This document shows, one piece after another, positions 20,280-55,938 of a stretch of DNA of 64,000 nt. Under the pieces are notes generated by a model. It worked only from the letters and a program-made list of their open reading frames with translations, ran no database searches and had not been told where the DNA came from. Both the position numbers and the translations under genes were made by a program. The DNA lies in NCBI RefSeq assembly GCF_010183535.1, contig NC_071332.1, positions 21,514,001 through 21,578,000 on the forward strand, given 5' to 3'. Source of the DNA: Caenorhabditis remanei. Taxonomy: Eukaryota > Nematoda > Chromadorea > Rhabditida > Rhabditidae. Within the stretch, counting starts at the first letter, position 1; each line of letters starts with the position of its first letter.

Positions 20280-20284
20280 GAGAC
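20280..20284. other. Target site duplication GAGAC (left)
   Basis: GAGAC directly precedes the 5' LTR and recurs directly after the 3' LTR at 55939-55943. A 5-bp duplication is usual for LTR retrotransposons. The site lies inside F-box exon 2. Confidence 0.9.
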
Positions 20285-21024
20285 TGTTGACAGTCTCCTG
20301 GTCCCCGAATCAGGGTCCTGTCCCACTCCAAACTAAAATGTAATAATTGTTCACTAAATTATTCTAATTTAGTTTACATTTATTTCATATTTTACTTTCT
20401 GTTATTTTCTCCCTTTTTCCCCTTCTTTAACTTCATTGGAAACGGAAGTAATTCCCTTTCAATTCAAATCACCGCCTTAATCGTTGTCTGCGTCTCCACA
20501 ATCAAAGGCGCACTCTCTTTACAACTTCATGGGTCTCGCCGCGCCGACACACAGGAAACGAGTGCAACCGTAGCCGACCGTCATCGACCTTTGGCCTAAA
20601 TCATAATTCATTCAGTCTTCTAACTTTCCCTTTTTGTTAGATTCTGTTGTTGAGTTTTTCCCCATTTTATTGTAGATTTGTTGGAGAAGTTGTAGTCGAG
20701 CACTCGGCGAATCCCTCGGTTCTTCTCCTTTTAGGAGAATCACCTCGGGTATTCTTCTAGTCCTCTACGAACCTTTTCCCCTTTAACTCTATTTTCTGTA
20801 AAGGAGATAACCGGTATAGGTTTTTAATGCAGTCCCTCGTTGGACATGCTTTTTATCCTAATAAACCTGTTATCTATAAACACGTGTTATTCCTTACAAA
20901 TGGGCACCTTCTAATACCTCTGAACCACCTAAAAAGAAGGAATAATTGCGAGAACATGTACATCTCACTCGGCTCTTACCGGCGGCCTTCCGTCCCCCCT
21001 CGGGAGACAGAAGAGATGGCCACA
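20285..21024 (+). repeat. 5' LTR, 740 bp
   Basis: Starts TGTTGACAGTCTCC and ends GATGGCCACA, matching 55199-55938 in length and, by eye, sequence. A hairpin 'CTTCTCCTTTTAGGAGAA' lies at about 20728, and AATAAA (polyadenylation type) occurs within 'CCTAATAAACC' near 20858. A 65-codon open frame begins at 20827 and is not thought to be a gene. Confidence 0.95.
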
Positions 21025-23530: not shown

Positions 23531-23970
23531 TACAGTGCGTGCAATAAGGATAGGACCACCCCCCATTTTGGATGTTCCGAGAAAAGTAAAAATGATATGA
23601 AAAATCTGTGACTGCCATTCGATTCAGAATACAAAAAAAACCCCAGGAGCCAAATTTTCATGTCTCTAGCACTTTCCGTACTCATGTACCATCCAGAAGT
23701 CGCTTTTTCAGGCGTGCAATAAGGATAGGACCACCAGCCATTTTCGATGAAGTGGTGCCTTTTTTTCAATTTTTTTTCAACACAGTGCTCATATTTTAAT
23801 TTATTTCGTTGTTTTTTTAAAAGTTTTCACTTCAAGACCATTGGACTGTGTAGATTTACGGCACTTGCCGATATACGAGAATCATTTCTAAAGCTTCAGT
23901 TAACAATTCAATCATTTATTGACGAAAATGAGAGAAAACACAAAAGAAAACAGAAAAACGTAAGCGAAAT

Positions 23971-24129
23971 TTAATAACTTGTTTCCCCACCATTGTTCTG
24001 GATAACTTCGAACAGGCGGTTGGGCATACTGGCGACGAGAGCCCTCAATTCAGCAGCAGTGATTGCATTCCACTCGGTCTCAACGGCGTCTTTGAGCTCT
24101 TGGATCGTATTGAATTGCCTTCCGTGCTT
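23971..24129 (-). pseudogene. Duplicated 3' end of Tc1-like transposase (antisense copy)
   Basis: This is the mirror of the C-terminal coding end at 24555-24713, including the I-Q-E-L-K-D-A-V-E-T-E-W and M-P-N-R-L-F-E-V-I motifs before the stop. It cannot encode a working transposase alone. Confidence 0.85.
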
Positions 24130-24713
24130 AAAAACATTTTCCAGGTTCTCTTCTCGGACGAGAAAAAATGGAATCTTGACGGCCCGGACGGCAACAGGCA
24201 TTATTGGAGAGATCTCCGTAAAGATCCACAGCTCTTCTCAATACGGAACTTTGGTGGCGTATCGCTGATGGTCTGGGGAGGCTTCTGCAACGGAATGAAG
24301 ATGAAACTTCAATTCATCACAACTCGAAAACGTCTGTTTCCTACCAGAGCATCCTCCAGAAGGCCATCGTTCCATTTTTCCGAAACAAACGCCGAACCCA
24401 TGTTTTCCAGCAGGACAACGCGTCGATCCACAAGAGCATCTCCACACAGAATTGGCTGAAGGCGCAAAAAATCACGGATCTCGAGTGGCCAGCAGTCAGC
24501 CCAGACCTCAATCTAATCGAAAACTTATGGGGACTGCTGGTTCGACGCGTTTACAAGCACGGAAGGCAATTCAATACGATCCAAGAGCTCAAAGACGCCG
24601 TTGAGACCGAGTGGAATGCAATCACTGCTGCTGAATTGAGGGCTCTCGTCGCCAGTATGCCCAACCGCCTGTTCGAAGTTATCCAGAACAATGGTGGGGA
24701 AACAAGTTATTAA
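24130..24713 (+). pseudogene. Tc1/mariner transposase, catalytic part only, frameshifted
   Basis: The readable parts include F-S-D-E-K-K-W-N (first catalytic Asp), Q-Q-D-N-A-S-I-H (second Asp) and S-P-D-L-N-L-I-E-N-L-W-G (the Glu of the DDE triad), ending N-G-G-E-T-S-Y before the stop at 24711-24713. The N-terminal helix-turn-helix DNA-binding half is absent, replaced by the inverted arm. A frame change is needed near 24330 between the first Asp region and the rest. Non-functional. Sits in the leader of the LTR element. Confidence 0.85.
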
Positions 24714-25152
24714 ATTTCGCTTACGTTTTTCTGTTTTCTTTTGTGTTTTCTCTCATTTTCGTCAATAAATGATTGAATTGTTAACTGAAGCTTTAGAAAT
24801 GATTCTCGTATATCGGCAAGTGCCGTAAATCTACACAGTCCAATGGTCTTGAAGTGAAAACTTTTAAAAAAACAACGAAATAAATTAAAATATGAGCACT
24901 GTGTTGAAAAAAAATTGAAAAAAAGGCACCACTTCATCGAAAATGGCTGGTGGTCCTATCCTTATTGCACGCCTGAAAAAGCGACTTCTGGATGGTACAT
25001 GAGTACGGAAAGTGCTAGAGACATGAAAATTTGGCTCCTGGGGTTTTTTTGTATTCTGAATCGAATGGCAGTCACAGATTTTTCATATCATTTTTACTTT
25101 TCTCGGAACATCCAAAATGGGGGGTGGTCCTATCCTTATTGCACGCACTGTA

Positions 25153-29296: not shown

Positions 29297-29302
29297 CCGG
29301 AT
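29297..29302. other. Target site duplication CCGGAT (left)
   Basis: CCGGAT immediately precedes the palindrome and recurs at 48087-48092 immediately after it. A 6-bp duplication is the Polinton/Maverick standard. Confidence 0.95.
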
Positions 29303-29897
29303 AGAGAAGTGGGGATGGGTCTTTAGGACACACAGGGGGTGGCATACCATGGGGCTTTTAACACAACCACCGGGATGACGTCACCAAAACCACTTTACGG
29401 TGCAATAATTGAATTTTTCATATTATTTTCTTTGTTGTTGTTGTATTTTTACTTAATGTTAGCGAAACTTATTCAATTATTATTCTTTAAACTTTATTTT
29501 CAACTTTAAATTAATTTATTTTTTAAACTTATTCAATTATTTATATTACTAATTTATTTTATCGATTTATTATTTTATTTTCCGACAATTAATTTGTTTG
29601 CTGTTTTAATGAATTGTATTTGTTTTAATTTGTTTCATTGTTATTTTTAATTTGGAATTATTTCAAATAACCAGATATGTAAATTGTAGTTTTGTCTATT
29701 CTTCATGTGTCTGTGCTATATGAATTCACGTGAAACACTTTTCAATAGAGGCTTTGTTTTGTAAACAGTTTAATTTTAACCGATATTGTGATTAACGGAT
29801 GATACAAATTTTATTTGGTTTTGCTTGACATAACTATTTATATAACAATACGAGTAATGTAGAAATTCAAAAAGGTACAAACGAAGCATTATTTATC

Positions 29898-30117
29898 AGT
29901 AGATACCAGAAAGAACAGCTTTTTAGATTTAATATACCATTTCTCCTTGTTTTCAAGACATTTTGCGCATAATAGAAACGACAAAAGGGGCGGAGCTTGT
30001 GAAAACTAGTAGATACCAGAAAAAAGTAACGTATTAGGCTCAAAAAGACATTCTCCCTCATTTTCAAGACATTTTACGCATAATAGAAACGACAAAAGGG
30101 GCGGAGCTTGTGAAAAC
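29898..30117 (+). repeat. Two 110-bp direct repeats upstream of the small paralog gene
   Basis: The unit starting AGTAGATACCAGAAA at 29898 recurs at 30008 with few changes. Each contains 'CGACAAAAGGGGCGGAGCTTG'-like sequence. The second unit abuts a TATA box. They look like promoter-proximal elements. Confidence 0.8.
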
Positions 30118-30125
30118 TATAAATA
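30118..30125 (+). promoter_or_regulatory. TATA box for the small paralog gene
   Basis: TATAAATA lies about 100 bases before the ATG at 30226. The polymerase gene has a similar box at the same spacing. Confidence 0.55.
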
Positions 30126-30225
30126 ACACAAGTATTGAGAAGTGGACATCATTCTACGTTTCTATTTCACCCAAACACCATTGATTTTCACCTATTTGCT
30201 CTACCAAATCTCAAAACTGATTGCA

Positions 30226-30750
30226 ATGAGCACATCTGGAGAAAACAACGAATCATCTTCCGGAAATCAAGCAACAACATTGATTGAGTGGATGAAACAA
30301 CATTCTGTGGGAATTCTGCCTGAAGAGGTAAATACTATTTTCTAATTGAATACTTTCATTCTTTGTTTTTAGGAGCTAAAAAAAGAACCAGTCAACGTTC
30401 TAAGAAAAACTGTCGATGAAGCTCAGGGATCATTTCGTGGAACTGTCACAACCATCACATTATTCACCGAATTGTCGATGATCATCACAGCTCATCCATG
30501 TGGAGCTGAAGCGTTTGGAGAGTGCGTACACGATCTTATTATAATACACAATCCATTCACTGGTCCGAAAGTGTATCTCTCTGTTTCCATTGAATCGCCT
30601 GAAAGAAGACTACCCCTTGGTACATGTTTCGGAATCCTCGAGACAATCACAGGTGAAACCATTGCAAATTGCTTGGAAAATAGCGGACAAAATCTTGAAC
30701 TGAACACTCCAAATGTTACTATCAAATTGGCATATCTTAATTCTCCTTAA
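30226..30750 (+). CDS. Stand-alone paralog of the polymerase N-terminal domain, 159 aa (left arm)
   Basis: Model: 30226-30327 joined to 30373-30750, in phase, with a 45-bp intron. After a Ser/Asn-rich start, residues ~55-155 match the N-terminal ~170 residues of the adjacent polymerase. Shared patterns are T-x-T-L-x-x-x-L-S, A-x-x-F-x-x-x-(V/L)-x-x-L, (N/D)-P-F and a closing (T/D)-(V)-P-N-(V/I)-(T/S)-(I/V)-(K/R)-(L/I)-x-Y-L-N-(S/P)-P. It is therefore a duplication of that domain, freed from the polymerase. The domain family is not recognised. By analogy with protein-primed replicons it could be a terminal-protein or DNA-binding cofactor, but that is inference. Its TATA box and repeats suggest its own promoter. 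An identical copy lies in the other arm. Confidence 0.75.
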
Positions 30751-31377
30751 ACTGTTGTATTCACGATTCTCCTATAAAATAAATATTTTTAAACCAGTAT
30801 GCAACACGACACACTAAAAGGAATACTTTTCCTGGTGTTACAATGCCACCATGAATGTTATAACAACATTAGCCGTGTTCCCACAGAAGATTATTGTTGA
30901 AAATAATACAATAAAAACAAAACACACACACACACACTTAAAAAATAATAACTTTCTATATGATCAAAAACAACTCACACCTACAGTCGGACAATCTTTC
31001 AATAATTTCAATGTAACCAGGTTTTTGAAGAAAGAAATCTTCGTTCATTCGATTTTAATTGTATTCTATGAACAAAAACTTTGTTTGTAGTATGTTCTTT
31101 TGCCAGACGCACTTTTTCTGGAACAAACTGACAACTCCAACAAATTATGAGTGACATAACTGAATCTACCTATATATATATATTGAACATGTGTTGAAAC
31201 AATTTTAACAAGTGTTTTCCATTTCCAACAACAAACTGGTGGTTGAATAGAAATGTACGCCACGTGTAAAGCACAAACGCACTACATATTCCGTAAGCAG
31301 TTTTCGCTTTTTGGTTAGTAGTGTTGTCTCCCAAAAAGCAGACCAGCGTTCGAACCTCCTTTGTAATGGATTCTTTC

Positions 31378-31409
<32 letters not shown>

Positions 31410-31858
31410 GTTTTGTTTTTATACACCACCTACACTCAAATTTTTGAATGAACGCGTGAAAAAAAAGACTAGGCAAAAAGTGTGTTAAATGTGGAAACGA
31501 AATAGTTTTGAACATTTGAACAGAAAAGACGGTGATTGGTATGTAATCTTATATTTTCTGTATGTTTACAAGCCATGCAACATTTTTGAAATAAATGCAT
31601 GAAAATTGACTAAGGTTGCTAGACACCGAACGATACCGAAAAGAACCTGAGGAGACTATTTTTATTACAATTACGCAGAACACATAAAAAAGCACAGGAG
31701 AATAGAGACATGCAGTGTTAATGTATTGATGACTCATTGTCATTTCTAGTAAATAATGGAAAAAATGAGAATTTACGGTGCGACATGCATGTAACCGTGG
31801 AAGTGACCTTATTCTCCATTTTAACCAATATTCGTGATTTTTCCGACACTAAAAACAC
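30751..31858. other. Spacer between the paralog and polymerase genes (left arm)
   Basis: AT-rich, with AATAAA-type signals just after 30770, a (CA)n run near 30925, TA/T-run microsatellites at 31377-31412 and a tRNA-like fragment near 31311-31362. Short open frames here have no support. Confidence 0.5.
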
Positions 31859-31866
31859 TATATAAA
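31859..31866 (+). promoter_or_regulatory. TATA box for the polymerase gene (left arm)
   Basis: TATATAAA about 100 bases upstream of the polymerase ATG at 31963, the same distance as for the small paralog gene. Confidence 0.55.
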
Positions 31867-31962
31867 GCCCAGCTAAACGCGAATACCTCATTCATACCTG
31901 CTTTTTCCCCTTGTATAAGGAACATTTATTTTTCTTCTTAAATAGTTTCTGATATTTCTGTG

Positions 31963-34900
31963 ATGCTCTCCAAACTTTCACTACCAAATACGACACCAAG
32001 AGTTGGAGAACAGGTAAGTTATCTTTTCACAGTTAATTTAAGGTAATGAGCTATACTTTAGGAACAAATAGGAGGTGCTAGTGTTCGTGTGGTACAAAAA
32101 ACCAATGAAAAGGCCGGAGGACGCTACATTGGAATGGTCGAGACAGTAACACTTGATCTACAATTGTCGAAATCTCTGACAGCTGATCCACAATGTGCAG
32201 AAATATTTGCTGATACTCTAGTACAGCTAGTTAAAAAACATGACCCATTCAAAACACCTCAAACAAGAGCTGGTTTGGTTTTTGATTCCGATGAAATTTT
32301 CGACGCTGTAGGATTGACTTTTCGTGAAATTAAGAAAGTCAGGGCAAGTGAAATTGTTGAGAGCATGTCACGAATGTCTCAGTCGAGCAGATCTCCACTC
32401 GAACTAGATGTCCCGAACATTTCTGTGCGAATTACCTACCTGAACCCTCCAGCAGGTAGTGGAAAACGAAAGTTTGACACAGGTAGTATCATGGATCTCA
32501 CTACTTTCGAGAAACGCCCAAAACTCGACGAAAGTTTGGACAATGTGGAATCAGAGAAAACAAAACGTTCGAACATGATGCCAAACGAAGGTAACTCATA
32601 ATCAATTAGTTTATAATATTTGGATTATTTCAGTTTTGGAGGATTGTCTGTTCCATGCACTCCACCAAGCACTCATGTATAACCGGTGGAAACAGAGTAA
32701 GTCTTTGGAAGATTACAACAAATACCGGAGTTCGATAAGAAAAACTTACAAAAAACCAGGATTATGCTGCGATGTCTATGAGGCTGTGAAAGCCATGAAA
32801 GAGGTAAGTGTTAATTAGTAAAGCACACTAATCAACTGCTTTATTTTCAGGAGGCAGAAATGACAAAATCCAACAATTTCGACTTAATAGATGTTGATCA
32901 CTTGCAAAAAACAGTTTTTACTGGAAAGTACCAGATAATTGTATTTTGTCAAAACTCAACAACACCTTACTATAGAGGTCCATACGTTGGAGAGAAAAAA
33001 AGTCTCGTGCTTTACCTCAGCAACGGTCATTATAACGGTGTGAGAAGTATATGTGCCTTACTAAAAACCAGTTACTATTGTTTTCTGTGCAATAGTAGGA
33101 CAGAAAACGCCATCACCCACTACAGCTGTCCTCTTCTCCATCGTCTGTGTGGTAAAAAGAATTGCCCAGCTGTGAAGGAAGGAGAACAAAAGAAATGCGA
33201 AAAATGCACTGTTGTGTTTCGATCAATCCAGTGCTACGAAAACCACATAGCTAAAGGTAAAACACATGTTTTGTAGATAATCACTAATACTTATTTTCAG
33301 GACCGAATGGAGGTAAAAGTCGATGCGACTACACATCTGTTTGTAAGAAGTGTGATGGTATTTACTATACAAACAAAAGAAAGAACGATCATCAATGTGG
33401 AGCAAAGTGGTGTTCCAGATGTAATTGCAAAAGAACGAACCCACATAAATGTAATATGCCAAAAGCGGTGAAGAATGAAAAGAAGTTGACAAGAAAACGA
33501 GTCTATTTTGATATTGAGGTAAGACTAAGCAACAAACTTAATGTTCATTGTGTTTATTTTCAGAGTAGAGCCGATGAATCAACAGGACAACAACATCCCG
33601 TTTTGTTCGTGGCTCTTCGTTGCTGTCCAAAGTGTTCATCTAACATACCAAAATGTCTACAGAGTTTGAAAAATGAAACATGTCAACATTGTGCACCAGA
33701 TGGACGTCTAAAAATAATTGAATGCATCACATTAGAGAACCGTCATGTGAATGTTGGATCTCAGATGACAAAATGGTTATTCGCGGATCAACACAGAGGA
33801 AGAGTTGTTGTGGCACACAACGCTTCAGGGTAATTTGACTATTTTTAGCATTAAAACTTTTTGTACACATTTCAGGTACGACGCACAGTTCATTTTGGAA
33901 AACATGATTGCAAGCAACACTGCAAAACCAAAAATCATTTTGGAAGGAACAAAACTTGTATTTCTCGAGTATAACGGAGTTCGACTTTTGGACTCCATGA
34001 AATTTTTGACAATGAGTCTAGCCTCATTGGGTAAATCATTTGAAGTTGATTCAGTCAAAGGGTAACCACAAAAATGTATATAAGGTATAAATTTGTTACT
34101 TTTCAGAGATTTTCCGGTTCTCTTCATCAAACCAGAACATTACAACTATAACGGCAGTATTCCAGACGACAAGTGGTACAATCTGGAAAACAAATCTTCT
34201 TCTGTAAAGAAACAGATTTTGAACTTCCTTGAAAATGAGAGAAATTCAAACAAAACATTCAATTTTGTTGATGAGATCATGAGGTATTGCTACAACGACG
34301 TGTATATACTAGCAAAAGCTATGGATATTTTTGAGAAAGAGTTCGAGACTATGACAGATGTATGTCTTTTGGAGGTAAATTTCTATTCAATATAGCATAT
34401 AATACTTTCTTTTTTTTTTTTTCAGGAATCCACGACAGCCGCGTCAGCTGCTGCGTTAGTATTCCGCCGAAACCATCTCGACCCAGAAAAACCGATTGTT
34501 TTAGATGTAAAACCGTCGGTTTCCATCAAATGTTCCGTAATAAGTCAAAAATATTTGGCATGGTTCAGCAAAAAAGAAAATGTTTCACTGAACATGTCAA
34601 CAACGTATGGAGAAGAAAAGGTAAATTATTTATCTTTTAGTTTCAAAGTTAATTCATTTTGTTCAGATCGGAAAGTATCGTGTAGATGGTTTTGTTTCAC
34701 CATGTGAAAAGTATCCTGATGGATTGGTGATTGAGTTCTTTGTGAGTAATTTCATACAAGTTACAAAAATAATAATAATTTTTACAGGGCTGCTATTGGC
34801 ATGCACATAGTTGCAGTTATTCTCAAGAATCCGTGATCGGTGACTTGAGTGCCAAAGAGATTTGGGCACGTGATGACGAACGGTTAAAGTATTTGAGACG

Positions 34901-36725
34901 GAAACATCCAGTCAAAGTTGTATGGGAATGTGAAGTGAATCAGGAACTTTGTGAAAACCAAGAAATGCACGACTTCTTTGAAAACTATGAACCGGTGGTG
35001 AGTTATATGTCGATTCAAAAAAAAAACTAATGTCATAATTTCAGGATATTCTACAAAGCGAAAAATCACTAGCCGGAGGGAGAACTGAAGTTTTCCGATT
35101 GTACATGAACAACGAAAAAAGAACCTTACGGTATTTGGATGTTGTCAGGTAGTTTCACTTTTAAAATTAATCTTATTGTAATATTTACAGTCTTTATCCC
35201 ACCGTCATGAAGCATGAAGCGTATCCAATTGGTCCCCCAGAGAATATTTCACGAAGTACCATCAAAACACCAATGACTCTTCCGGAACACATCACATTCA
35301 GAGGTTTTATCAGCTGCAACGTATTACCCCCACGACATCTACGATTACCAGTACTACCCATAAAATATGGGGGTAAACTGTTGTTTGGACTTTGTAAACG
35401 TAAGTTCTATCAAAATGCCAGTTTCAAAACTAATTTTTCAGAATGTTGCAAGGAAAGTAACCAATCGGATTGCAAACACAACAACGAAGAACGTTCTTTC
35501 AATGGCACATTCACAACGGTGGAACTCCAAAAGGCTCTGAGCGTGGGTTATATCATAAACGATATTTATCACGTGAGTTTTAAAACCAGTTTCCATTATA
35601 ATATGATAATTTTCAGAGTGTCAAATATGAACACTGGGTTCAGAACAATGAAAAGGGAGAAGGAGGCCTCTTTACATCATTTATCAACCAGATGATGGAA
35701 GAAAAAATTGTGAGTTTTAGTTTAGAAAAGCAAGTATTTGACTAATGTTTTAATTTTCAGTATAGCTCAGGTTGGCCTTCAAATGTCAAGACCGATGAAG
35801 AGAAAGATGCGTTTTGTAAAGCTTATTTAGAAAAGGAACACATCCATCTGAGTGACCGAAACCGTTTTAAAAAGAATCCAGGAAAAAGAGCAGTTGCCAA
35901 GTTGATGCTGAATTCATTGGTAAGCTTCAAATTCTACTATAATCATAATGTTAAATTTTTCAGTGGGGAAAGTTCGCACAAAACGTTGATCGAGAGTCCA
36001 CGGAAATTGTCATAGACCCAATGGAATTTTGGAAACTTGTCTATGACACAAACGTAGTAATTTCGATTGTACGTTGTGTGAATGACGTTCTGGTTGTGAA
36101 ATACAAGAAACAACAGGAAACACTCCAAAGTTTGAAGACAAGTGCCATGCAACTTGCATCCTTCACAACTTCGTACGCTCGTCTTCGACTTTACCGATTT
36201 ATGGAAATGGTTGGAGGTGAAAACATTGTATATACTGGTAAGAAAACAAACAAAAAAAAAAACAATAGTATTAATTTTCTATTTTCAGACACCGACTCCA
36301 TTATCTACGCTGTACCTGAAGACACAAAAGATCCACTAGAAATGGAAGTTGGGCCTTACCTCGGACAACTGACGAATGAGGTTGATGGCGAAATGACAGA
36401 GTTTGTCAGTTTGGGTCCCAAAACGTACTGTTACAAGGATATATCCAACGGTGAAGAGAAGATTGTCAGAAAAGCCAAAGGAATTACGATGAATTCACAA
36501 GTAGAGAAGTATGTGAACTTTGAAATGATGAGAGGCTTGGTTGATGAAGCAATCAAGAATACCGGAGAACGGACAGAACATCTTATACCTCAACATACGA
36601 TGTATAGGGATAACAATCATCGTGTGTATAGCCGAAATATTGTGAAGAAGTTTAAGTACACGTTCAACAAAAGAAGGCTTCTTACTGATGGATCGACACT
36701 TCCTTTTGGATATTCTTGTACTTAA
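31963..36725 (+). CDS. polB: Protein-primed family B DNA polymerase with OTU-like N-terminus, 1326 aa (left arm)
   Basis: Eighteen exons: 31963-32013, 32062-32590, 32634-32803, 32851-33256, 33301-33518, 33564-33829, 33876-34061, 34107-34374, 34426-34620, 34667-34741, 34788-34997, 35045-35148, 35191-35399, 35442-35572, 35617-35709, 35761-35919, 35964-36237, 36289-36725. All phases fit and there are no internal stops. Residues ~1-190 form the domain shared with the upstream gene. An OTU-protease-like pair follows: D-C-L-F-H-A-L with Cys198, and G-H-Y-N-G-V with His310. Next is a Cys/His-rich zinc-ribbon stretch (~325-440). Exonuclease motifs are Y-F-D-I-E (456-458), H-N-A-S-G-Y-D (544-549) and Y-C-Y-N-D (669-673). 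F-F-G-C-Y-W-H (~787-793) is typical of the DNA_pol_B_2 group. Polymerase motifs: A, D-V-V-S-L-Y-P (890-896); B, K-L-M-L-N-S-L-W-G (1084-1092); C, D-T-D-S (1182-1185). All catalytic residues are present. It should copy the element by protein-primed synthesis. Confidence 0.92.
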
Positions 36726-37551
36726 ATTGTTTTGTTTGAAATAAACCATATAACGTAAATACTGAATCTTTTTTTTTAAACAATATTCCACTAGGTTGAA
36801 AAAAAAAAAATTCCGAATTTCATATTGTTTGATGTAGGAATAGGCGAAATGGTAAAAACAAACAAAAAACATTGCATCTTCGGAAAAGAGAAATGACTAA
36901 CGGAAAAAGCCTACGTCTCGCACTCCCTCTACTAAAAGACCTTACTTGACTTTTTCGCCATTTCTACCTTTTTTCTTGAAAGCGTGTGTTAGCTTTTAAA
37001 AAATAATGTATATATTTGCTTTTTATTGAATTCTAATATTTCTTTTTAATTATTCGACTGTCTACTGAATGACAGTCTCTGTATATTTTGATTTTTATTG
37101 AATTCTAATATTTCTTTTTAATTATTCGACTGTCTACTGAATGACAGTCTCTGTATATTTTGATTTTTATTGAATTAAAAATCTCATCCAATCTCTTCCA
37201 ACCCACGTCGACTACCTCGAGTTCTTCATCCATGCTCAGAAAAGCAATTTGATCAAAGATGATGGATTCTCCTATCTTCTGACAGTAAGCAACCATCATG
37301 TAAGTACATATAGATACCGTTAATACTGTATTACATAGGCATGACGTTATATTGTTACTCCCAAAGAAATTTCGTTTCTTTCAGAAGTTGTCGACTACCT
37401 TGAGTTCTTCATCGGGAAGTGATTCAGAAGTTGATGATGAATACCTTCAATAACAACCCGATCCGTACAGTGATTATGAGTTCGATTGTGACGATTATTT
37501 GAAGGTTGAAATTGACTAATTATTTCAGTTTTGAACATTTAATTTCAGAAA
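36726..37551. other. Region 3' of polymerase: 72-bp tandem repeat and possible exons
   Basis: AATAAA at about 36740 may end the polymerase mRNA. A 72-bp unit is tandemly repeated at 37021-37092 and 37093-37164, with a third partial copy. The two phrases GTCGACTACCTCGAGTTCTTC (about 37207) and GTCGACTACCTTGAGTTCTTC (about 37388) are near-repeats on either side of a GTAAGT donor and TTTCAG acceptor, suggesting small exons. Confidence 0.5.
37387..37519 (+). pseudogene. Acidic Ser-rich open frame with an in-frame stop (left arm)
   Basis: After the TTTCAG at about 37386 a frame reads a Ser-rich then acidic segment (S-G-S-D-S-E-V-D-D-E-Y-L-Q), meets TAA at about 37452, and continues in the same frame with another acidic segment (Y-S-D-Y-E-F-D-C-D-D-Y-L) to a stop near 37519. 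It is either two short pieces, a recent nonsense mutation, or readthrough. The mirror copy has the same stop. Function unknown. Confidence 0.35.
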
Positions 37552-38105
37552 ATGTCCCGAGAGTTACCAGAGTTAACTAATGATCTGATTGTCGGTGGGA
37601 CGGATAATACGAGTCTTCAAGAACTTCAAGATTTAGGCGACCCGGTGGAGTTTCTAAAAGTAAGAACCGAAACTGAAACATTTTACAGCAGGTTAAAATC
37701 AATATTTTGCGAAGAAAAAATTTCAAAATATGGAGCCACTCTAGACGATGGATAGAATGATTGTGAAAATCGTGTAAAAAGCTGCTATAAAAATACCTGA
37801 TTCAATCTAAAATAGATAGAAAAGGTGAAGATCCACATTTATAATTTTTACGTACAGCCTTGCTTTATATTTAGAAATATATAGAAATGAAGCAAATAAC
37901 GAAATTTCAGGTTTTCTTGACGGCCTCAATGATGGGTCAACCACTAAAAGTGAAGGATGGTTTCGATCCGGAAGACTTGGACAAACGTTGTACCGAATTA
38001 ATGGGAATCACTCTGACATGTGTCGCTAGTGCCTTGCTTGGTGCTGAATTGCAGAATATTCCGAATCGATCGAAGACTGAAAGGACTAAGAATGAACGAC
38101 TGTAA
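37552..38105 (+). CDS. Unknown small protein, 100 aa (left arm)
   Basis: Model: 37552-37659 joined to 37911-38105, phase 0, with a 251-bp intron. The N-terminus is acidic (M-S-R-E-L-P-E-L-T-N-D-L) and exon 2 has an amphipathic stretch (L-M-G-I-T-L-T-C-V-A-S-A-L-L-G-A-E-L) followed by a basic end. No family recognised. The stop overlaps a second open frame (ATG at 38092) that continues with protein-like sequence, so the two could be one gene with a 1-nt shift. Confidence 0.5.
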
Positions 38106-38295
38106 GATTATTGAGATATGTCCGGCCGTTGTGACTCTGGGAGATGTCAATCAATTCTTGAGAAACTGGAGTTCGCTGAGCACTAACCACAACATGGAAA
38201 TCTTGAGTCTCTTGTCTAATCTTGGTAAACAAAATAATTTTTCTATAAATTGAATGTGAAATTTCATTATTTCAGAAAGTCAATCAACGGACTGA
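38092..38295 (+). CDS. Overlapping short open frame, ~50 aa (left arm)
   Basis: Model: 38092-38224 joined to 38276-38295, starting inside the last codons of the 100-aa gene in a different frame. The peptide (V-V-T-L-G-D-V-N-Q-F-L-R-N-W) looks protein-like rather than random. Either a separate ORF with a 14-base overlap or the true C-terminus of the upstream gene reached by frameshift. AATAAA follows at about 38339. Confidence 0.35.
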
Positions 38296-38633
38296 TTGGG
38301 TTCACCTATGGCGCACTCTACACTGAACTCTTTTCAAAATAAAATCTGAAACATATTCTAATTTAATTGTCATTATCATTATTGAAAATATCGACACGCT
38401 TAATTAATATACTGTAATTCTTTCTTTTCTTCAATTCTAAATAAACATATGTAATTTTGTTTATAAAATAAAAATGAATACACGACAGAAACAAATTATA
38501 TTCAATAACGACACAAAAAAAAAATATTATAAACCTATATCATTTTTTTTTTTTTTCATAGTTTAGCCAAAATTCCCAAGTGAGTCATTCCTATCTCTCA
38601 TTTTTCATTTCCATTGTTTCAACAGAACAGCGA

Positions 38634-38755
38634 GAGAAGTGTGGGGAGAGGGGAGAAGATGAGTCACCGACCGGCCGAGGCTTACCCCCCGAGAGAGCGA
38701 GAGGGTGCTGGGAGGTACAAGAAAAAATGGTGCTAAACTCACCCCCACACTTCTC
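38634..38755. repeat. Palindrome centre with terminus-like inverted repeats
   Basis: The asymmetric spacer is 38647-38742 (96 bases, GC-rich, GAGAG and CCCCCC runs). It is framed by AGAGAAGTGTGGGG and its reverse complement, strongly resembling the outer element end AGAGAAGTGGGGATGGG and in the same inward orientation. The centre thus looks like a tiny element or a remnant of former element ends. Confidence 0.7.
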
Positions 38756-39093
38756 TCGCTGTTCTGTTGAAACAATGGAAATGAAAAATGAGAGATAGGA
38801 ATGACTCACTTGGGAATTTTGGCTAAACTATGAAAAAAAAAAAAAATGATATAGGTTTATAATATTTTTTTTTTGTGTCGTTATTGAATATAATTTGTTT
38901 CTGTCGTGTATTCATTTTTATTTTATAAACAAAATTACATATGTTTATTTAGAATTGAAGAAAAGAAAGAATTACAGTATATTAATTAAGCGTGTCGATA
39001 TTTTCAATAATGATAATGACAATTAAATTAGAATATGTTTCAGATTTTATTTTGAAAAGAGTTCAGTGTAGAGTGCGCCATAGGTGAACCCAA

Positions 39094-39297
39094 TCAGTCC
39101 GTTGATTGACTTTCTGAAATAATGAAATTTCACATTCAATTTATAGAAAAATTATTTTGTTTACCAAGATTAGACAAGAGACTCAAGATTTCCATGTTGT
39201 GGTTAGTGCTCAGCGAACTCCAGTTTCTCAAGAATTGATTGACATCTCCCAGAGTCACAACGGCCGGACATATCTCAATAATCTTACAGTCGTTCAT
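39094..39297 (-). CDS. Overlapping short open frame, ~50 aa (right arm)
   Basis: Mirror of 38092-38295 (39165-39297 joined to 39094-39113). Same uncertainty about whether it is separate from the 100-aa gene. Confidence 0.35.
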
Positions 39298-39837
39298 TCT
39301 TAGTCCTTTCAGTCTTCGATCGATTCGGAATATTCTGCAATTCAGCACCAAGCAAGGCACTAGCGACACATGTCAGAGTGATTCCCATTAATTCGGTACA
39401 ACGTTTGTCCAAGTCTTCCGGATCGAAACCATCCTTCACTTTTAGTGGTTGACCCATCATTGAGGCCGTCAAGAAAACCTGAAATTTCGTTATTTGCTTC
39501 ATTTCTATATATTTCTAAATATAAAGCAAGGCTGTACGTAAAAATTATAAATGTGGATCTTCACCTTTTCTATCTATTTTAGATTGAATCAGGTATTTTT
39601 ATAGCAGCTTTTTACACGATTTTCACAATCATTCTATCCATCGTCTAGAGTGGCTCCATATTTTGAAATTTTTTCTTCGCAAAATATTGATTTTAACCTG
39701 CTGTAAAATGTTTCAGTTTCGGTTCTTACTTTTAGAAACTCCACCGGGTCGCCTAAATCTTGAAGTTCTTGAAGACTCGTATTATCCGTCCCACCGACAA
39801 TCAGATCATTAGTTAACTCTGGTAACTCTCGGGACAT
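39284..39837 (-). CDS. Unknown small protein, 100 aa (right arm)
   Basis: Mirror of 37552-38105: exons 39730-39837 and 39284-39478, identical protein. No family recognised. Lies at the inner end of the right arm, 3' of the polymerase gene. Confidence 0.5.
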
Positions 39838-39869
39838 TTTCTGAAATTAAATGTTCAAAACTGAAATAA

Positions 39870-40002
39870 TTAGTCAATTTCAACCTTCAAATAATCGTCA
39901 CAATCGAACTCATAATCACTGTACGGATCGGGTTGTTATTGAAGGTATTCATCATCAACTTCTGAATCACTTCCCGATGAAGAACTCAAGGTAGTCGACA
40001 AC
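39870..40002 (-). pseudogene. Acidic Ser-rich open frame with an in-frame stop (right arm)
   Basis: Mirror of 37387-37519 with the same internal stop, so the stop predates or was homogenised with formation of the palindrome. Confidence 0.35.
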
Positions 40003-40663
40003 TTCTGAAAGAAACGAAATTTCTTTGGGAGTAACAATATAACGTCATGCCTATGTAATACAGTATTAACGGTATCTATATGTACTTACATGATGGTTGC
40101 TTACTGTCAGAAGATAGGAGAATCCATCATCTTTGATCAAATTGCTTTTCTGAGCATGGATGAAGAACTCGAGGTAGTCGACGTGGGTTGGAAGAGATTG
40201 GATGAGATTTTTAATTCAATAAAAATCAAAATATACAGAGACTGTCATTCAGTAGACAGTCGAATAATTAAAAAGAAATATTAGAATTCAATAAAAATCA
40301 AAATATACAGAGACTGTCATTCAGTAGACAGTCGAATATTTAAAAAGAAATATTAGAATTCAATAAAAAGCAAATATATACATTATTTTTTAAAAGCTAA
40401 CACACGCTTTCAAGAAAAAAGGTAGAAATGGCGAAAAAGTCAAGTAAGGTCTTTTAGTAGAGGGAGTGCGAGACGTAGGCTTTTTCCGTTAGTCATTTCT
40501 CTTTTCCGAAGATGCAATGTTTTTTGTTTGTTTTTACCATTTCGCCTATTCCTACATCAAACAATATGAAATTCGGAATTTTTTTTTTTTCAACCTAGTG
40601 GAATATTGTTTAAAAAAAAAGATTCAGTATTTACGTTATATGGTTTATTTCAAACAAAACAAT

Positions 40664-43600
40664 TTAAGTACAAGAATATCCAAAAGGAAGTGTCGATCCA
40701 TCAGTAAGAAGCCTTCTTTTGTTGAACGTGTACTTAAACTTCTTCACAATATTTCGGCTATACACACGATGATTGTTATCCCTATACATCGTATGTTGAG
40801 GTATAAGATGTTCTGTCCGTTCTCCGGTATTCTTGATTGCTTCATCAACCAAGCCTCTCATCATTTCAAAGTTCACATACTTCTCTACTTGTGAATTCAT
40901 CGTAATTCCTTTGGCTTTTCTGACAATCTTCTCTTCACCGTTGGATATATCCTTGTAACAGTACGTTTTGGGACCCAAACTGACAAACTCTGTCATTTCG
41001 CCATCAACCTCATTCGTCAGTTGTCCGAGGTAAGGCCCAACTTCCATTTCTAGTGGATCTTTTGTGTCTTCAGGTACAGCGTAGATAATGGAGTCGGTGT
41101 CTGAAAATAGAAAATTAATACTATTGTTTTTTTTTTTGTTTGTTTTCTTACCAGTATATACAATGTTTTCACCTCCAACCATTTCCATAAATCGGTAAAG
41201 TCGAAGACGAGCGTACGAAGTTGTGAAGGATGCAAGTTGCATGGCACTTGTCTTCAAACTTTGGAGTGTTTCCTGTTGTTTCTTGTATTTCACAACCAGA
41301 ACGTCATTCACACAACGTACAATCGAAATTACTACGTTTGTGTCATAGACAAGTTTCCAAAATTCCATTGGGTCTATGACAATTTCCGTGGACTCTCGAT
41401 CAACGTTTTGTGCGAACTTTCCCCACTGAAAAATTTAACATTATGATTATAGTAGAATTTGAAGCTTACCAATGAATTCAGCATCAACTTGGCAACTGCT
41501 CTTTTTCCTGGATTCTTTTTAAAACGGTTTCGGTCACTCAGATGGATGTGTTCCTTTTCTAAATAAGCTTTACAAAACGCATCTTTCTCTTCATCGGTCT
41601 TGACATTTGAAGGCCAACCTGAGCTATACTGAAAATTAAAACATTAGTCAAATACTTGCTTTTCTAAACTAAAACTCACAATTTTTTCTTCCATCATCTG
41701 GTTGATAAATGATGTAAAGAGGCCTCCTTCTCCCTTTTCATTGTTCTGAACCCAGTGTTCATATTTGACACTCTGAAAATTATCATATTATAATGGAAAC
41801 TGGTTTTAAAACTCACGTGATAAATATCGTTTATGATATAACCCACGCTCAGAGCCTTTTGGAGTTCCACCGTTGTGAATGTGCCATTGAAAGAACGTTC
41901 TTCGTTGTTGTGTTTGCAATCCGATTGGTTACTTTCCTTGCAACATTCTGAAAAATTAGTTTTGAAACTGGCATTTTGATAGAACTTACGTTTACAAAGT
42001 CCAAACAACAGTTTACCCCCATATTTTATGGGTAGTACTGGTAATCGTAGATGTCGTGGGGGTAATACGTTGCAGCTGATAAAACCTCTGAATGTGATGT
42101 GTTCCGGAAGAGTCATTGGTGTTTTGATGGTACTTCGTGAAATATTCTCTGGGGGACCAATTGGATACGCTTCATGCTTCATGACGGTGGGATAAAGACT
42201 GTAAATATTACAATAAGATTAATTTTAAAAGTGAAACTACCTGACAACATCCAAATACCGTAAGGTTCTTTTTTCGTTGTTCATGTACAATCGGAAAACT
42301 TCAGTTCTCCCTCCGGCTAGTGATTTTTCGCTTTGTAGAATATCCTGAAATTATGACATTAGTTTTTTTTTTGAATCGACATATAACTCACCACCGGTTC
42401 ATAGTTTTCAAAGAAGTCGTGCATTTCTTGGTTTTCACAAAGTTCCTGATTCACTTCACATTCCCATACAACTTTGACTGGATGTTTCCGTCTCAAATAC
42501 TTTAACCGTTCGTCATCACGTGCCCAAATCTCTTTGGCACTCAAGTCACCGATCACGGATTCTTGAGAATAACTGCAACTATGTGCATGCCAATAGCAGC
42601 CCTGTAAAAATTATTATTATTTTTGTAACTTGTATGAAATTACTCACAAAGAACTCAATCACCAATCCATCAGGATACTTTTCACATGGTGAAACAAAAC
42701 CATCTACACGATACTTTCCGATCTGAACAAAATGAATTAACTTTGAAACTAAAAGATAAATAATTTACCTTTTCTTCTCCATACGTTGTTGACATGTTCA
42801 GTGAAACATTTTCTTTTTTGCTGAACCATGCCAAATATTTTTGACTTATTACGGAACATTTGATGGAAACCGACGGTTTTACATCTAAAACAATCGGTTT
42901 TTCTGGGTCGAGATGGTTTCGGCGGAATACTAACGCAGCAGCTGACGCGGCTGTCGTGGATTCCTGAAAAAAAAAAAAAGAAAGTATTATATGCTATATT
43001 GAATAGAAATTTACCTCCAAAAGACATACATCTGTCATAGTCTCGAACTCTTTCTCAAAAATATCCATAGCTTTTGCTAGTATATACACGTCGTTGTAGC
43101 AATACCTCATGATCTCATCAACAAAATTGAATGTTTTGTTTGAATTTCTCTCATTTTCAAGGAAGTTCAAAATCTGTTTCTTTACAGAAGAAGATTTGTT
43201 TTCCAGATTGTACCACTTGTCGTCTGGAATACTGCCGTTATAGTTGTAATGTTCTGGTTTGATGAAGAGAACCGGAAAATCTCTGAAAAGTAACAAATTT
43301 ATACCTTATATACATTTTTGTGGTTACCCTTTGACTGAATCAACTTCAAATGATTTACCCAATGAGGCTAGACTCATTGTCAAAAATTTCATGGAGTCCA
43401 AAAGTCGAACTCCGTTATACTCGAGAAATACAAGTTTTGTTCCTTCCAAAATGATTTTTGGTTTTGCAGTGTTGCTTGCAATCATGTTTTCCAAAATGAA
43501 CTGTGCGTCGTACCTGAAATGTGTACAAAAAGTTTTAATGCTAAAAATAGTCAAATTACCCTGAAGCGTTGTGTGCCACAACAACTCTTCCTCTGTGTTG

Positions 43601-45426
43601 ATCCGCGAATAACCATTTTGTCATCTGAGATCCAACATTCACATGACGGTTCTCTAATGTGATGCATTCAATTATTTTTAGACGTCCATCTGGTGCACAA
43701 TGTTGACATGTTTCATTTTTCAAACTCTGTAGACATTTTGGTATGTTAGATGAACACTTTGGACAGCAACGAAGAGCCACGAACAAAACGGGATGTTGTT
43801 GTCCTGTTGATTCATCGGCTCTACTCTGAAAATAAACACAATGAACATTAAGTTTGTTGCTTAGTCTTACCTCAATATCAAAATAGACTCGTTTTCTTGT
43901 CAACTTCTTTTCATTCTTCACCGCTTTTGGCATATTACATTTATGTGGGTTCGTTCTTTTGCAATTACATCTGGAACACCACTTTGCTCCACATTGATGA
44001 TCGTTCTTTCTTTTGTTTGTATAGTAAATACCATCACACTTCTTACAAACAGATGTGTAGTCGCATCGACTTTTACCTCCATTCGGTCCTGAAAATAAGT
44101 ATTAGTGATTATCTACAAAACATGTGTTTTACCTTTAGCTATGTGGTTTTCGTAGCACTGGATTGATCGAAACACAACAGTGCATTTTTCGCATTTCTTT
44201 TGTTCTCCTTCCTTCACAGCTGGGCAATTCTTTTTACCACACAGACGATGGAGAAGAGGACAGCTGTAGTGGGTGATGGCGTTTTCTGTCCTACTATTGC
44301 ACAGAAAACAATAGTAACTGGTTTTTAGTAAGGCACATATACTTCTCACACCGTTATAATGACCGTTGCTGAGGTAAAGCACGAGACTTTTTTTCTCTCC
44401 AACGTATGGACCTCTATAGTAAGGTGTTGTTGAGTTTTGACAAAATACAATTATCTGGTACTTTCCAGTAAAAACTGTTTTTTGCAAGTGATCAACATCT
44501 ATTAAGTCGAAATTGTTGGATTTTGTCATTTCTGCCTCCTGAAAATAAAGCAGTTGATTAGTGTGCTTTACTAATTAACACTTACCTCTTTCATGGCTTT
44601 CACAGCCTCATAGACATCGCAGCATAATCCTGGTTTTTTGTAAGTTTTTCTTATCGAACTCCGGTATTTGTTGTAATCTTCCAAAGACTTACTCTGTTTC
44701 CACCGGTTATACATGAGTGCTTGGTGGAGTGCATGGAACAGACAATCCTCCAAAACTGAAATAATCCAAATATTATAAACTAATTGATTATGAGTTACCT
44801 TCGTTTGGCATCATGTTCGAACGTTTTGTTTTCTCTGATTCCACATTGTCCAAACTTTCGTCGAGTTTTGGGCGTTTCTCGAAAGTAGTGAGATCCATGA
44901 TACTACCTGTGTCAAACTTTCGTTTTCCACTACCTGCTGGAGGGTTCAGGTAGGTAATTCGCACAGAAATGTTCGGGACATCTAGTTCGAGTGGAGATCT
45001 GCTCGACTGAGACATTCGTGACATGCTCTCAACAATTTCACTTGCCCTGACTTTCTTAATTTCACGAAAAGTCAATCCTACAGCGTCGAAAATTTCATCG
45101 GAATCAAAAACCAAACCAGCTCTTGTTTGAGGTGTTTTGAATGGGTCATGTTTTTTAACTAGCTGTACTAGAGTATCAGCAAATATTTCTGCACATTGTG
45201 GATCAGCTGTCAGAGATTTCGACAATTGTAGATCAAGTGTTACTGTCTCGACCATTCCAATGTAGCGTCCTCCGGCCTTTTCATTGGTTTTTTGTACCAC
45301 ACGAACACTAGCACCTCCTATTTGTTCCTAAAGTATAGCTCATTACCTTAAATTAACTGTGAAAAGATAACTTACCTGTTCTCCAACTCTTGGTGTCGTA
45401 TTTGGTAGTGAAAGTTTGGAGAGCAT
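40664..45426 (-). CDS. polB: Protein-primed family B DNA polymerase with OTU-like N-terminus, 1326 aa (right arm)
   Basis: Mirror of the left-arm gene: each exon coordinate equals 77389 minus the left value, for example first exon 45376-45426 and last exon 40664-41101. The protein is identical in every segment compared, including exonuclease motifs I-III and polymerase motifs A-C. Two intact copies of an 18-exon gene in opposite orientation imply recent duplication or ongoing arm-to-arm conversion. Confidence 0.92.
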
Positions 45427-45522
45427 CACAGAAATATCAGAAACTATTTAAGAAGAAAAATAAATGTTCCTTATACAAGGGGAAAAAGCAGGTATGAATG
45501 AGGTATTCGCGTTTAGCTGGGC

Positions 45523-45530
45523 TTTATATA
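45523..45530 (-). promoter_or_regulatory. TATA box for the polymerase gene (right arm)
   Basis: Mirror of 31859-31866, about 100 bases before the ATG. Confidence 0.5.
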
Positions 45531-45979
45531 GTGTTTTTAGTGTCGGAAAAATCACGAATATTGGTTAAAATGGAGAATAAGGTCACTTCCACGGTTACAT
45601 GCATGTCGCACCGTAAATTCTCATTTTTTCCATTATTTACTAGAAATGACAATGAGTCATCAATACATTAACACTGCATGTCTCTATTCTCCTGTGCTTT
45701 TTTATGTGTTCTGCGTAATTGTAATAAAAATAGTCTCCTCAGGTTCTTTTCGGTATCGTTCGGTGTCTAGCAACCTTAGTCAATTTTCATGCATTTATTT
45801 CAAAAATGTTGCATGGCTTGTAAACATACAGAAAATATAAGATTACATACCAATCACCGTCTTTTCTGTTCAAATGTTCAAAACTATTTCGTTTCCACAT
45901 TTAACACACTTTTTGCCTAGTCTTTTTTTTCACGCGTTCATTCAAAAATTTGAGTGTAGGTGGTGTATAAAAACAAAAC

Positions 45980-46011
<32 letters not shown>

Positions 46012-46638
46012 GAAAGAATCCATTACAAAGGAGGTTCGAACGCTGGTCTGCTTTTTGGGAGACAACACTACTAACCAAAAAGCGAAAACTGCTTACGGAA
46101 TATGTAGTGCGTTTGTGCTTTACACGTGGCGTACATTTCTATTCAACCACCAGTTTGTTGTTGGAAATGGAAAACACTTGTTAAAATTGTTTCAACACAT
46201 GTTCAATATATATATATAGGTAGATTCAGTTATGTCACTCATAATTTGTTGGAGTTGTCAGTTTGTTCCAGAAAAAGTGCGTCTGGCAAAAGAACATACT
46301 ACAAACAAAGTTTTTGTTCATAGAATACAATTAAAATCGAATGAACGAAGATTTCTTTCTTCAAAAACCTGGTTACATTGAAATTATTGAAAGATTGTCC
46401 GACTGTAGGTGTGAGTTGTTTTTGATCATATAGAAAGTTATTATTTTTTAAGTGTGTGTGTGTGTGTTTTGTTTTTATTGTATTATTTTCAACAATAATC
46501 TTCTGTGGGAACACGGCTAATGTTGTTATAACATTCATGGTGGCATTGTAACACCAGGAAAAGTATTCCTTTTAGTGTGTCGTGTTGCATACTGGTTTAA
46601 AAATATTTATTTTATAGGAGAATCGTGAATACAACAGT
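45531..46638. other. Spacer between polymerase and paralog genes (right arm)
   Basis: Mirror of the left-arm spacer, with the same TA/T-run microsatellites (45977-46012), (GT)n run and tRNA-like fragment (about 46027-46078). Confidence 0.5.
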
Positions 46639-47163
46639 TTAAGGAGAATTAAGATATGCCAATTTGATAGTAACATTTGGAGTGTTCAGTTCAAGATTTT
46701 GTCCGCTATTTTCCAAGCAATTTGCAATGGTTTCACCTGTGATTGTCTCGAGGATTCCGAAACATGTACCAAGGGGTAGTCTTCTTTCAGGCGATTCAAT
46801 GGAAACAGAGAGATACACTTTCGGACCAGTGAATGGATTGTGTATTATAATAAGATCGTGTACGCACTCTCCAAACGCTTCAGCTCCACATGGATGAGCT
46901 GTGATGATCATCGACAATTCGGTGAATAATGTGATGGTTGTGACAGTTCCACGAAATGATCCCTGAGCTTCATCGACAGTTTTTCTTAGAACGTTGACTG
47001 GTTCTTTTTTTAGCTCCTAAAAACAAAGAATGAAAGTATTCAATTAGAAAATAGTATTTACCTCTTCAGGCAGAATTCCCACAGAATGTTGTTTCATCCA
47101 CTCAATCAATGTTGTTGCTTGATTTCCGGAAGATGATTCGTTGTTTTCTCCAGATGTGCTCAT
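46639..47163 (-). CDS. Stand-alone paralog of the polymerase N-terminal domain, 159 aa (right arm)
   Basis: Mirror of 30226-30750: exons 47062-47163 and 46639-47016, identical protein. TATA box at 47264-47271 and 110-bp repeats at 47272-47491 lie upstream, as in the other arm. Confidence 0.75.
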
Positions 47164-47271
47164 TGCAATCAGTTTTGAGATTTGGTAGAGCAAATAGGTG
47201 AAAATCAATGGTGTTTGGGTGAAATAGAAACGTAGAATGATGTCCACTTCTCAATACTTGTGTTATTTATA

Positions 47272-47491
47272 GTTTTCACAAGCTCCGCCCCTTTTGTCGT
47301 TTCTATTATGCGTAAAATGTCTTGAAAATGAGGGAGAATGTCTTTTTGAGCCTAATACGTTACTTTTTTCTGGTATCTACTAGTTTTCACAAGCTCCGCC
47401 CCTTTTGTCGTTTCTATTATGCGCAAAATGTCTTGAAAACAAGGAGAAATGGTATATTAAATCTAAAAAGCTGTTCTTTCTGGTATCTACT
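47272..47491 (-). repeat. Two 110-bp direct repeats upstream of the paralog gene (right arm)
   Basis: Mirror of 29898-30117. Confidence 0.8.
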
Positions 47492-48086
47492 GATAAATAA
47501 TGCTTCGTTTGTACCTTTTTGAATTTCTACATTACTCGTATTGTTATATAAATAGTTATGTCAAGCAAAACCAAATAAAATTTGTATCATCCGTTAATCA
47601 CAATATCGGTTAAAATTAAACTGTTTACAAAACAAAGCCTCTATTGAAAAGTGTTTCACGTGAATTCATATAGCACAGACACATGAAGAATAGACAAAAC
47701 TACAATTTACATATCTGGTTATTTGAAATAATTCCAAATTAAAAATAACAATGAAACAAATTAAAACAAATACAATTCATTAAAACAGCAAACAAATTAA
47801 TTGTCGGAAAATAAAATAATAAATCGATAAAATAAATTAGTAATATAAATAATTGAATAAGTTTAAAAAATAAATTAATTTAAAGTTGAAAATAAAGTTT
47901 AAAGAATAATAATTGAATAAGTTTCGCTAACATTAAGTAAAAATACAACAACAACAAAGAAAATAATATGAAAAATTCAATTATTGCACCGTAAAGTGGT
48001 TTTGGTGACGTCATCCCGGTGGTTGTGTTAAAAGCCCCATGGTATGCCACCCCCTGTGTGTCCTAAAGACCCATCCCCACTTCTCT

Positions 48087-48092
48087 CCGGAT
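48087..48092. other. Target site duplication CCGGAT (right)
   Basis: Matches 29297-29302 exactly, directly outside the right terminus of the palindrome. Confidence 0.95.
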
Positions 48093-55250: not shown

Positions 55251-55938
55251 AATGTAATAATTGTTCACTAAATTATTCTAATTTAGTTTACATTTATTTC
55301 ATATTTTACTTTCTGTTATTTTCTCCCTTTTTCCCCTTCTTTAACTTCATTGGAAACGGAAGTAATTCCCTTTCAATTCAAATCACCGCCTTAATCGTTG
55401 TCTGCGTCTCCACAATCAAAGGCGCACTCTCTTTACAACTTCATGGGTCTCGCCGCGCCGACACACAGGAAACGAGTGCAACCGTAGCCGACCGTCATCG
55501 ACCTTTGGCCTAAATCATAATTCATTCAGTCTTCTAACTTTCCCTTTTTGTTAGATTCTGTTGTTGAGTTTTTCCCCATTTTATTGTAGATTTGTTGGAG
55601 AAGTTGTAGTCGAGCACTCGGCGAATCCCTCGGTTCTTCTCCTTTTAGGAGAATCACCTCGGGTATTCTTCTAGTCCTCTACGAACCTTTTCCCCTTTAA
55701 CTCTATTTTCTGTAAAGGAGATAACCGGTATAGGTTTTTAATGCAGTCCCTCGTTGGACATGCTTTTTATCCTAATAAACCTGTTATCTATAAACACGTG
55801 TTATTCCTTACAAATGGGCACCTTCTAATACCTCTGAACCACCTAAAAAGAAGGAATAATTGCGAGAACATGTACATCTCACTCGGCTCTTACCGGCGGC
55901 CTTCCGTCCCCCCTCGGGAGACAGAAGAGATGGCCACA
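55199..55938 (+). repeat. 3' LTR, 740 bp
   Basis: Same TG...CA ends and same length as the 5' LTR; no difference was noticed by eye. It is preceded by CAGACCCCCCGGAG rather than a purine-rich tract. Confidence 0.95.

Follow-up and report, generated by a model that had tools for sequence, protein, structure and literature searches.

Polintons (Mavericks) are regarded as a link between transposons and viruses. Protein-primed linear DNA can also give rise to palindromic dimers, as in the yeast linear plasmid pGKL1, for which hairpin and inverted-dimer derivatives are known. Virophages depend on a helper virus and encode their own capsid; foldback transposons carry long inverted repeats, and to our knowledge none of them carries a polymerase. 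The core genes of Polintons, as given in one account (PMC3671162), include a retrovirus-like integrase (one of four), a packaging ATPase, and a C5 protease. In the helper-dependent rolling-hairpin replication of adeno-associated virus (AAV) and other parvoviruses, as outlined in another account (PMC11575299), a terminal hairpin primes the second strand, which results in inverted (alternating) repeats. Here, we describe a palindrome of 18.8 kb, designated P1, at positions 29303–48086 of the window, i.e., the whole stretch of 64,000 nucleotides (C5:21514001–21578000), in the genome of Caenorhabditis remanei (130,466,896 bases, 186 contigs). P1 and its relatives are probably palindromic satellites derived from Polintons, which carry their own protein-primed polymerase and no detected integrase or capsid, and which were likely inserted by a helper integrase and re-made by foldback at a terminus in their center. 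Helper-driven insertion is considered likely because no integrase was detected in the palindromes.

Analogous to Polintons, the palindromes encode a protein-primed polymerase that includes a terminal-protein and an OTU-like part, terminate in AG...CT, are flanked by a 6-bp duplication, and are of similar length. Unlike Polintons, however, the palindrome is an inverted duplication of the whole element, whose arms lack matches to the capsid, integrase, protease, and ATPase and which has an extra stand-alone terminal-protein-like gene as well as a helper-type end at the center. The proposed replication would resemble that of AAV and other parvoviruses in hairpin-primed synthesis, inverted repeats, and helper dependence, with no sequence relation claimed; contrary to these viruses, the palindromes use a protein-primed polymerase and integrate as an inverted dimer. 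While the pGKL1 derivatives are laboratory deletion products of a plasmid, the palindromes form a diverse chromosomal group.

Self-BLAST aligned the left arm of P1 (29303–38646, forward strand, starting AGAGAAGTGGGGATGGG) with the right arm, its reverse complement (48086–38743, reverse strand), without gaps and with identity at 9,343 of 9,344 positions; the sole mismatch is located at 37050 when each position x from 29303 to 38646 is paired with 77389−x. A 96-bp asymmetric loop (38647–38742) separates the arms. The exact mirror over ~9.34 kb per arm with one mismatch, which the initial annotation had claimed, is therefore borne out, and the AG...CT termini and the clean CCGGAT duplication it described were both read directly at the junctions: the outer ends read AGAGAAGTGG...CCACTTCTCT, and CCGGAT stands immediately 5′ of 29303 (29297–29302) and immediately 3′ of 48086 (48087–48092). 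After these arms, the longest repeat in the window measures only 743 bp, which places P1 far beyond chance. The flanks of P1 are unlike each other, and their common part is the 6-bp duplication only. An assembly artefact, toward which the apparent division of one related element between two small contigs (C128 and C176) might point, was rejected because the flanks differ and because other mirror elements occur at other sites with their own 6-bp duplications, which is unlike an assembler echo. Since exact 6-bp duplications lie within unlike flanks, the palindromes differ in sequence, and 14 of the 20 loci are found on contigs C1–C6, each of at least 17 Mb, the probability of such an artefact is very low.

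Polymerase loci were collected by whole-genome protein searches with two exons as probes, and the rows obtained were typed (polymerase, 150 of 162 and 125 of 125; capsid, 100 of 100; integrase, 84 of 84); the search scores best candidates only, so the counts of polymerase loci are lower bounds. A locus was called palindromic when, for at least two probe matches, its plus and minus copies mirrored each other about one center (to within 3 bases) and scored the same or nearly so. Among the matches listed, 83 polymerase clusters were distinguished, of which 20 are palindromic, 6 doubtful, and 57 single. The third probe in P2 is shifted by ~1.15 kb from its mirror position, and the second arm of C128 ends at the contig end; this locus could represent another allele, or a duplicate, of C62, and because the two may be one locus, the palindromic loci number at least 19. 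A group of this size rules out a one-off rearrangement. The idea of a single rearranged Polinton is accordingly abandoned, as P1 belongs to a diverse palindromic group, which accounts for 20 of the 83 polymerase loci and is separated in the tree.

This tree of the polymerase N-terminal exon comprised 20 rows from 17 palindromic elements and seven conventional loci, with gene 1 (described below) as an extra row. One branch, which was not starred, parts the palindromic from the conventional rows, with a support of 91/98 and presence in 96% of bootstrap trees. Four main palindromic lineages were recovered, the first of which includes sublineages A1 (P1 and P2) and A2 (P4, P5, and C122:158). Palindromic Polintons were not described in the literature surveyed by titles and abstract starts, a survey that does not take in the main nematode Polinton study, and the novelty of palindromic Polinton satellites is provisional.

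The polymerase gene of P1 spans 31963–36725 on the forward strand, with its second copy at the mirror coordinates 40664–45426 on the reverse strand. Along the forward strand, the N-terminal domain exon (32062–32598) is followed by the OTU-like part, with a Cys near 32639 and a His near 33022, the exonuclease motif YFDIE at 33501, and the motif C TDS at 36291. Pfam DNA_pol_B_2 was matched in two exons and the PHROG DNA polymerase in three, and the protein is 45–61% identical to the polymerase of a conventional Polinton of the same genome, designated Q, across five exons. The N-terminal exon displays dN/dS values of 0.03–0.44 in 13 of 13 pairs, which were chosen by hand and are not independent; this purifying selection suggests that the palindromic elements replicate using a working polymerase. 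The motif RSN(I/M)M(P/L)NEG at the end of the N-terminal exon occurs in palindromic polymerase rows and in three database proteins, which show that relatives exist, and is absent from the conventional rows as aligned. Relatives were found neither in viral contigs nor, by sequence search, in the PDB. Pfam BIV_Env and Cas-family matches were taken as chance.

Conventional helpers are co-resident with the palindromes in the genome. Q (C4:19923527–19943035) has 190-bp inverted ends and a 6-bp target duplication, TGCTGA; its capsid domain scored above the cut-off, its integrase core and C5 protease, at E 3.6e-6 and 3e-4, respectively, both fell short of their cut-offs, and it also contains, besides the polymerase, a P-loop ATPase represented by several weak matches. 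In tblastn searches, the protease, capsid, integrase, and ATPase pieces of Q found nothing better than E 0.3 in the P1 arm, one P4 half, and both P5 halves, with the ATPase and protease pieces searched against the P1 arm, the P4 half, and P5 only. Within the probe span, none of the 84 genome-wide integrase matches and none of the 100 genome-wide capsid (double jelly-roll) matches fall inside any of the 20 palindromes. Moreover, 19 of the 20 have no capsid or integrase match within 12 kb, the exception being C124, to the right of which lies a conventional Polinton; among the 57 single-copy polymerase loci, 35 have both matches within this distance, 3 have one, and 19 have neither. The designation of P1 as Polinton-like thus stands in the sense of relatedness, given the polymerase, the AG...CT ends, and the 6-bp duplication, and falls in the strict sense, given that the arm holds no match to the capsid, integrase, protease, or ATPase of Q. 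Inverted pairs of conventional Polinton integrase matches were also observed on the small contigs C114, C86, C92, C174, and C75, with capsid matches on C114 as well; these may be palindromic copies of conventional Polintons or folds in the assembly.

The other gene of the arm, gene 1, lies at 30226–30750 on the forward strand, with an intron at 30328–30372 placed by eye, and its second copy at the mirror coordinates 46639–47163 on the reverse strand. The 159-aa product corresponds to the NCBI hypothetical protein GCK72_021846 and is a stand-alone relative of the N-terminal (terminal-protein) domain of the polymerase. No match below E 0.001 was obtained in a fold search with its structure model, which gave matches of middling Z to an APC subunit, Cas7, and little-finger domains; with matches this spread, the protein can be firmly tied to the polymerase domain only, and through its sequence. 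It could be argued that the palindromes are autonomous and carry an unrecognized integrase, e.g., gene 1, which is found across three of the four main palindromic lineages and has no Pfam match; this is regarded as very improbable. Each arm further contains a stretch with broken frames, 91% identical to C1:4690790–4691470, which lies at 37413–38082 on the forward strand in the left arm.

The 96-bp center of P1 is bounded, as the initial annotation had not noticed, by inverted Polinton-type termini, of which the left side of the inner stem reads AGAGAAGTGTGGGG (38633–38646, forward strand) and the right side CCCCACACTTCTCT (38743–38756, forward strand), and one of these termini runs on into a conventional Polinton end, such that a helper-type terminus 93–94% identical to the ends of Q occupies 38691–38756 on the forward strand. 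An inverted motif, AGAGA(A/C)NTNTGG, marks the border between arm and loop in 14 of 16 centers, and, in the 13 centers measured, between 123 and 987 bp are enclosed by the motif pair. In 13 of 14 elements, the identity of the arms reaches the inner motif and then decays within ~30 bp past it; before the motif, i.e., on its arm side, zero mismatches were counted in 13 of 14 (7–300 bp compared in each). Bases 1–15 of the motif hold one mismatch in 5 of the 14, which in P1 and P2 falls on base 15. In P4, the arms match without exception over their first 8,282 bases, and mismatching sets in at base 6 of the motif.

In all five sublineages tested, one side of the loop is a conventional Polinton end, each time of a different family: the end of Q in A1 (93–94% over 66–71 bp), the ends of C3:10.68 and C6:3.25 in A2 (84–86% over 327 bp), those of C156 and C5:18.25 in B (90–96% over ~250 bp), those of C1:15.3, C2:13.3, and C5:16.75 in C (83–90%), and those of C5:18.61, C4:9.88, and C5:22.13 in D (88–91% over ~240 bp). 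The conventional loci matched by the loops carry polymerase, integrase, and capsid matches. The outer ends had no helper-end match in the two elements tested, as none of the 23 matches of P1 lay at the Q ends and all eight of C5_4.40 were palindrome ends. Since the terminus keeps its position across the five sublineages and yet stems from a different helper in each, these comparisons suggest that the central helper end is re-acquired and of importance. The central loop of lineage B also occurs at C1:14082207–14086360 in two inverted copies ~3.4 kb apart.

The same geometry would be expected of an occasional break followed by foldback at a short inverted repeat of a nested, shrunken Polinton, in which case the helper terminus would have no role, and the inner unit does resemble a tiny element with AGAGAA...TTCTCT ends. 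However, the centers inspected show no direct 6-bp duplication around the inner unit, the flanks of which are inverted; only one side extends into the Q end in P1 and P2 (z 15.0 and 16.7, as opposed to 1.6 and 0.2 on the other side); and all five sublineages have it in the same place and orientation, with the palindromes confined to one side of the tree. This origin is hence deemed unlikely.

We favor instead a satellite re-made by foldback, and infer for it a half-size form, a foldback mechanism, mobility, helper insertion, and packaging. The linear half-size form would consist of the outer end, gene 1, the polymerase, and a helper-type right end. Its 3′ end, ..CCCCACACTTCTCT in P1, would fold onto the inverted AGAGAAGTGTGGGG located 96 nt further upstream, and the folded 3′ end would prime synthesis, by which the entire arm would be copied outwards. 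Two identical arms would result, around a short stem and a loop that stays uncopied and one-sided, and the stem, i.e., the first 14–15 bases of the terminus, may keep mismatches after foldback. The palindrome, now having two identical outer ends, would be inserted by the helper integrase with a 6-bp duplication; that helper capsids also package its DNA is more speculative still. The snap-back or template-switching route raised in the initial annotation agrees with the geometry, which fits foldback copying, the mechanism itself being conjectural.

Comparison of P1 and P2 revealed 19 differing sites in the outer 2 kb at which both arms agree within each element, and no site with a cross pattern; arm differences in this region number zero within P1 and one within P2. 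The inner 2.8 kb holds eight sites of the same kind, in an alignment disturbed by an indel. A G-to-C difference between the two stems occurs on both stem sides, and the two loops are 97% alike in opposite orientation. P4 is 75–87% alike to P1 in the main aligned blocks, yet its two arms are free of differences over 8,282 bases, while C98 and C5_20.6 differ with a dS of 0.54. Because the 19 arm-concordant sites are free of a cross pattern, the arms are homogenized or re-made. This homogenization is incomplete: the P2 arms have a length difference of ~1.15 kb, and a 228-bp deletion in one arm, and those of C5_20.6 have two differences in 308 bp, near the ends. Where the P2 arms match, two mismatches were counted in a 1,639-bp block and zero in a 981-bp block.

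Arm-to-arm gene conversion is known from Y-chromosome palindromes, and one ancient palindrome could have had its arms kept identical by such chromosomal conversion with no replication foldback. The concerted arms and the single palindromic side of the tree are consistent with this, and conversion tracts that stop at the non-matching loop could spare the innermost bases. Nevertheless, the arm differences retained by P2 and those retained near the ends of C5_20.6 speak against it, the insertions look young since the target duplications are exact in seven of eight cases, and the helper-type terminus in the loop is left unexplained; we assign gene conversion a minor share of the probability, larger than that of break-and-foldback.

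Exact 6-bp duplications, all different, flank seven of the eight palindromes with both ends read: P1 (CCGGAT), P2 (GATGCC), P4 (CTCATA), C5_4.40 (TATTAT), C5_20.6 (TCCCTT), C98 (TCCGAG), and C124 (TGGGTT). The empty site of P2 is also recognizable: at six places, satellite monomers agree with its joined flanks, including a single GATGCC, at all but 1 of 40 bases. On the basis of these duplications and the empty site, the palindromes insert as units. Of the two options in the initial annotation, namely insertion as a unit or formation in place, the former is upheld by the duplications, while the latter is not supported, P1 being a member of a diverse palindromic group. P2 (C62 flanks) is surrounded by a satellite array that repeats every ~168 bp.

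Several observations weigh against the favored foldback origin. Neither the linear half-size form nor a hairpin nor an intact insertion of a single arm was observed, and chromosomal gene conversion could also homogenize the arms. The motif pair is absent from 2 of the 16 centers (C122_277 and C6_4.85), arm identity in C1_15.6 extends 60 bp or more beyond the motif, and the D and A2 loops are partly inverted, with weaker helper similarity on the other side too. The central stem-loop of P1, with its 14-bp stem, shows only a modest folding advantage, with a z of −2.5 against 200 shuffles, seven of which are as good, while the center of C5_4.40 reaches a z of −24 against 20 shuffles. The ends of P5, the center of which is rearranged, bear an 8-bp repeat, CACCGGTG, rather than a 6-bp one. 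Finally, we infer integration in trans by a helper from the shared end motif and the duplication length only.

Among elements with both ends located, the palindromes measure 15.6–19.7 kb (median 18.7, n = 8) and the conventional Polintons 16.1–20.5 kb (median 19.5, n = 10), with C5:16.75 (end beyond the match) and C6:21350357–21379659 (29.3-kb span) omitted. These like lengths are the sole hint of packaging. A tentative extension, which we consider possible and clearly less probable than the satellite origin itself, is that the palindromes are capsid parasites of Polintons, in which a half-size genome doubles to the length of the helper genome, the central helper terminus serves as a replication or packaging signal, and the lineages are matched to their helpers.

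Two further repeats were observed in the window: a direct repeat of 743 bp, 99.9% identical, at 20282–21024 and 55196–55938, 35 kb apart and flanking P1, and an inverted repeat of 600 bp, 99.5% identical, at 23531–24135 and 24549–25152.

In practical terms, assemblies may break at palindromes of this kind, which are readily taken for artefacts. A diverse set of polymerase-only perfect palindromes that exist beside full-length Polintons and bear their ends would establish the existence of Polinton satellites, and it would offer recurrent natural evidence that a protein-primed replicon is copied by foldback in the germ line of an animal, a mechanism that the comparison of arms renders testable. 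If the palindromes were indeed capsid parasites, animal Polintons would host dedicated satellites, and the palindrome would be an adaptation that fills the shell of the helper.

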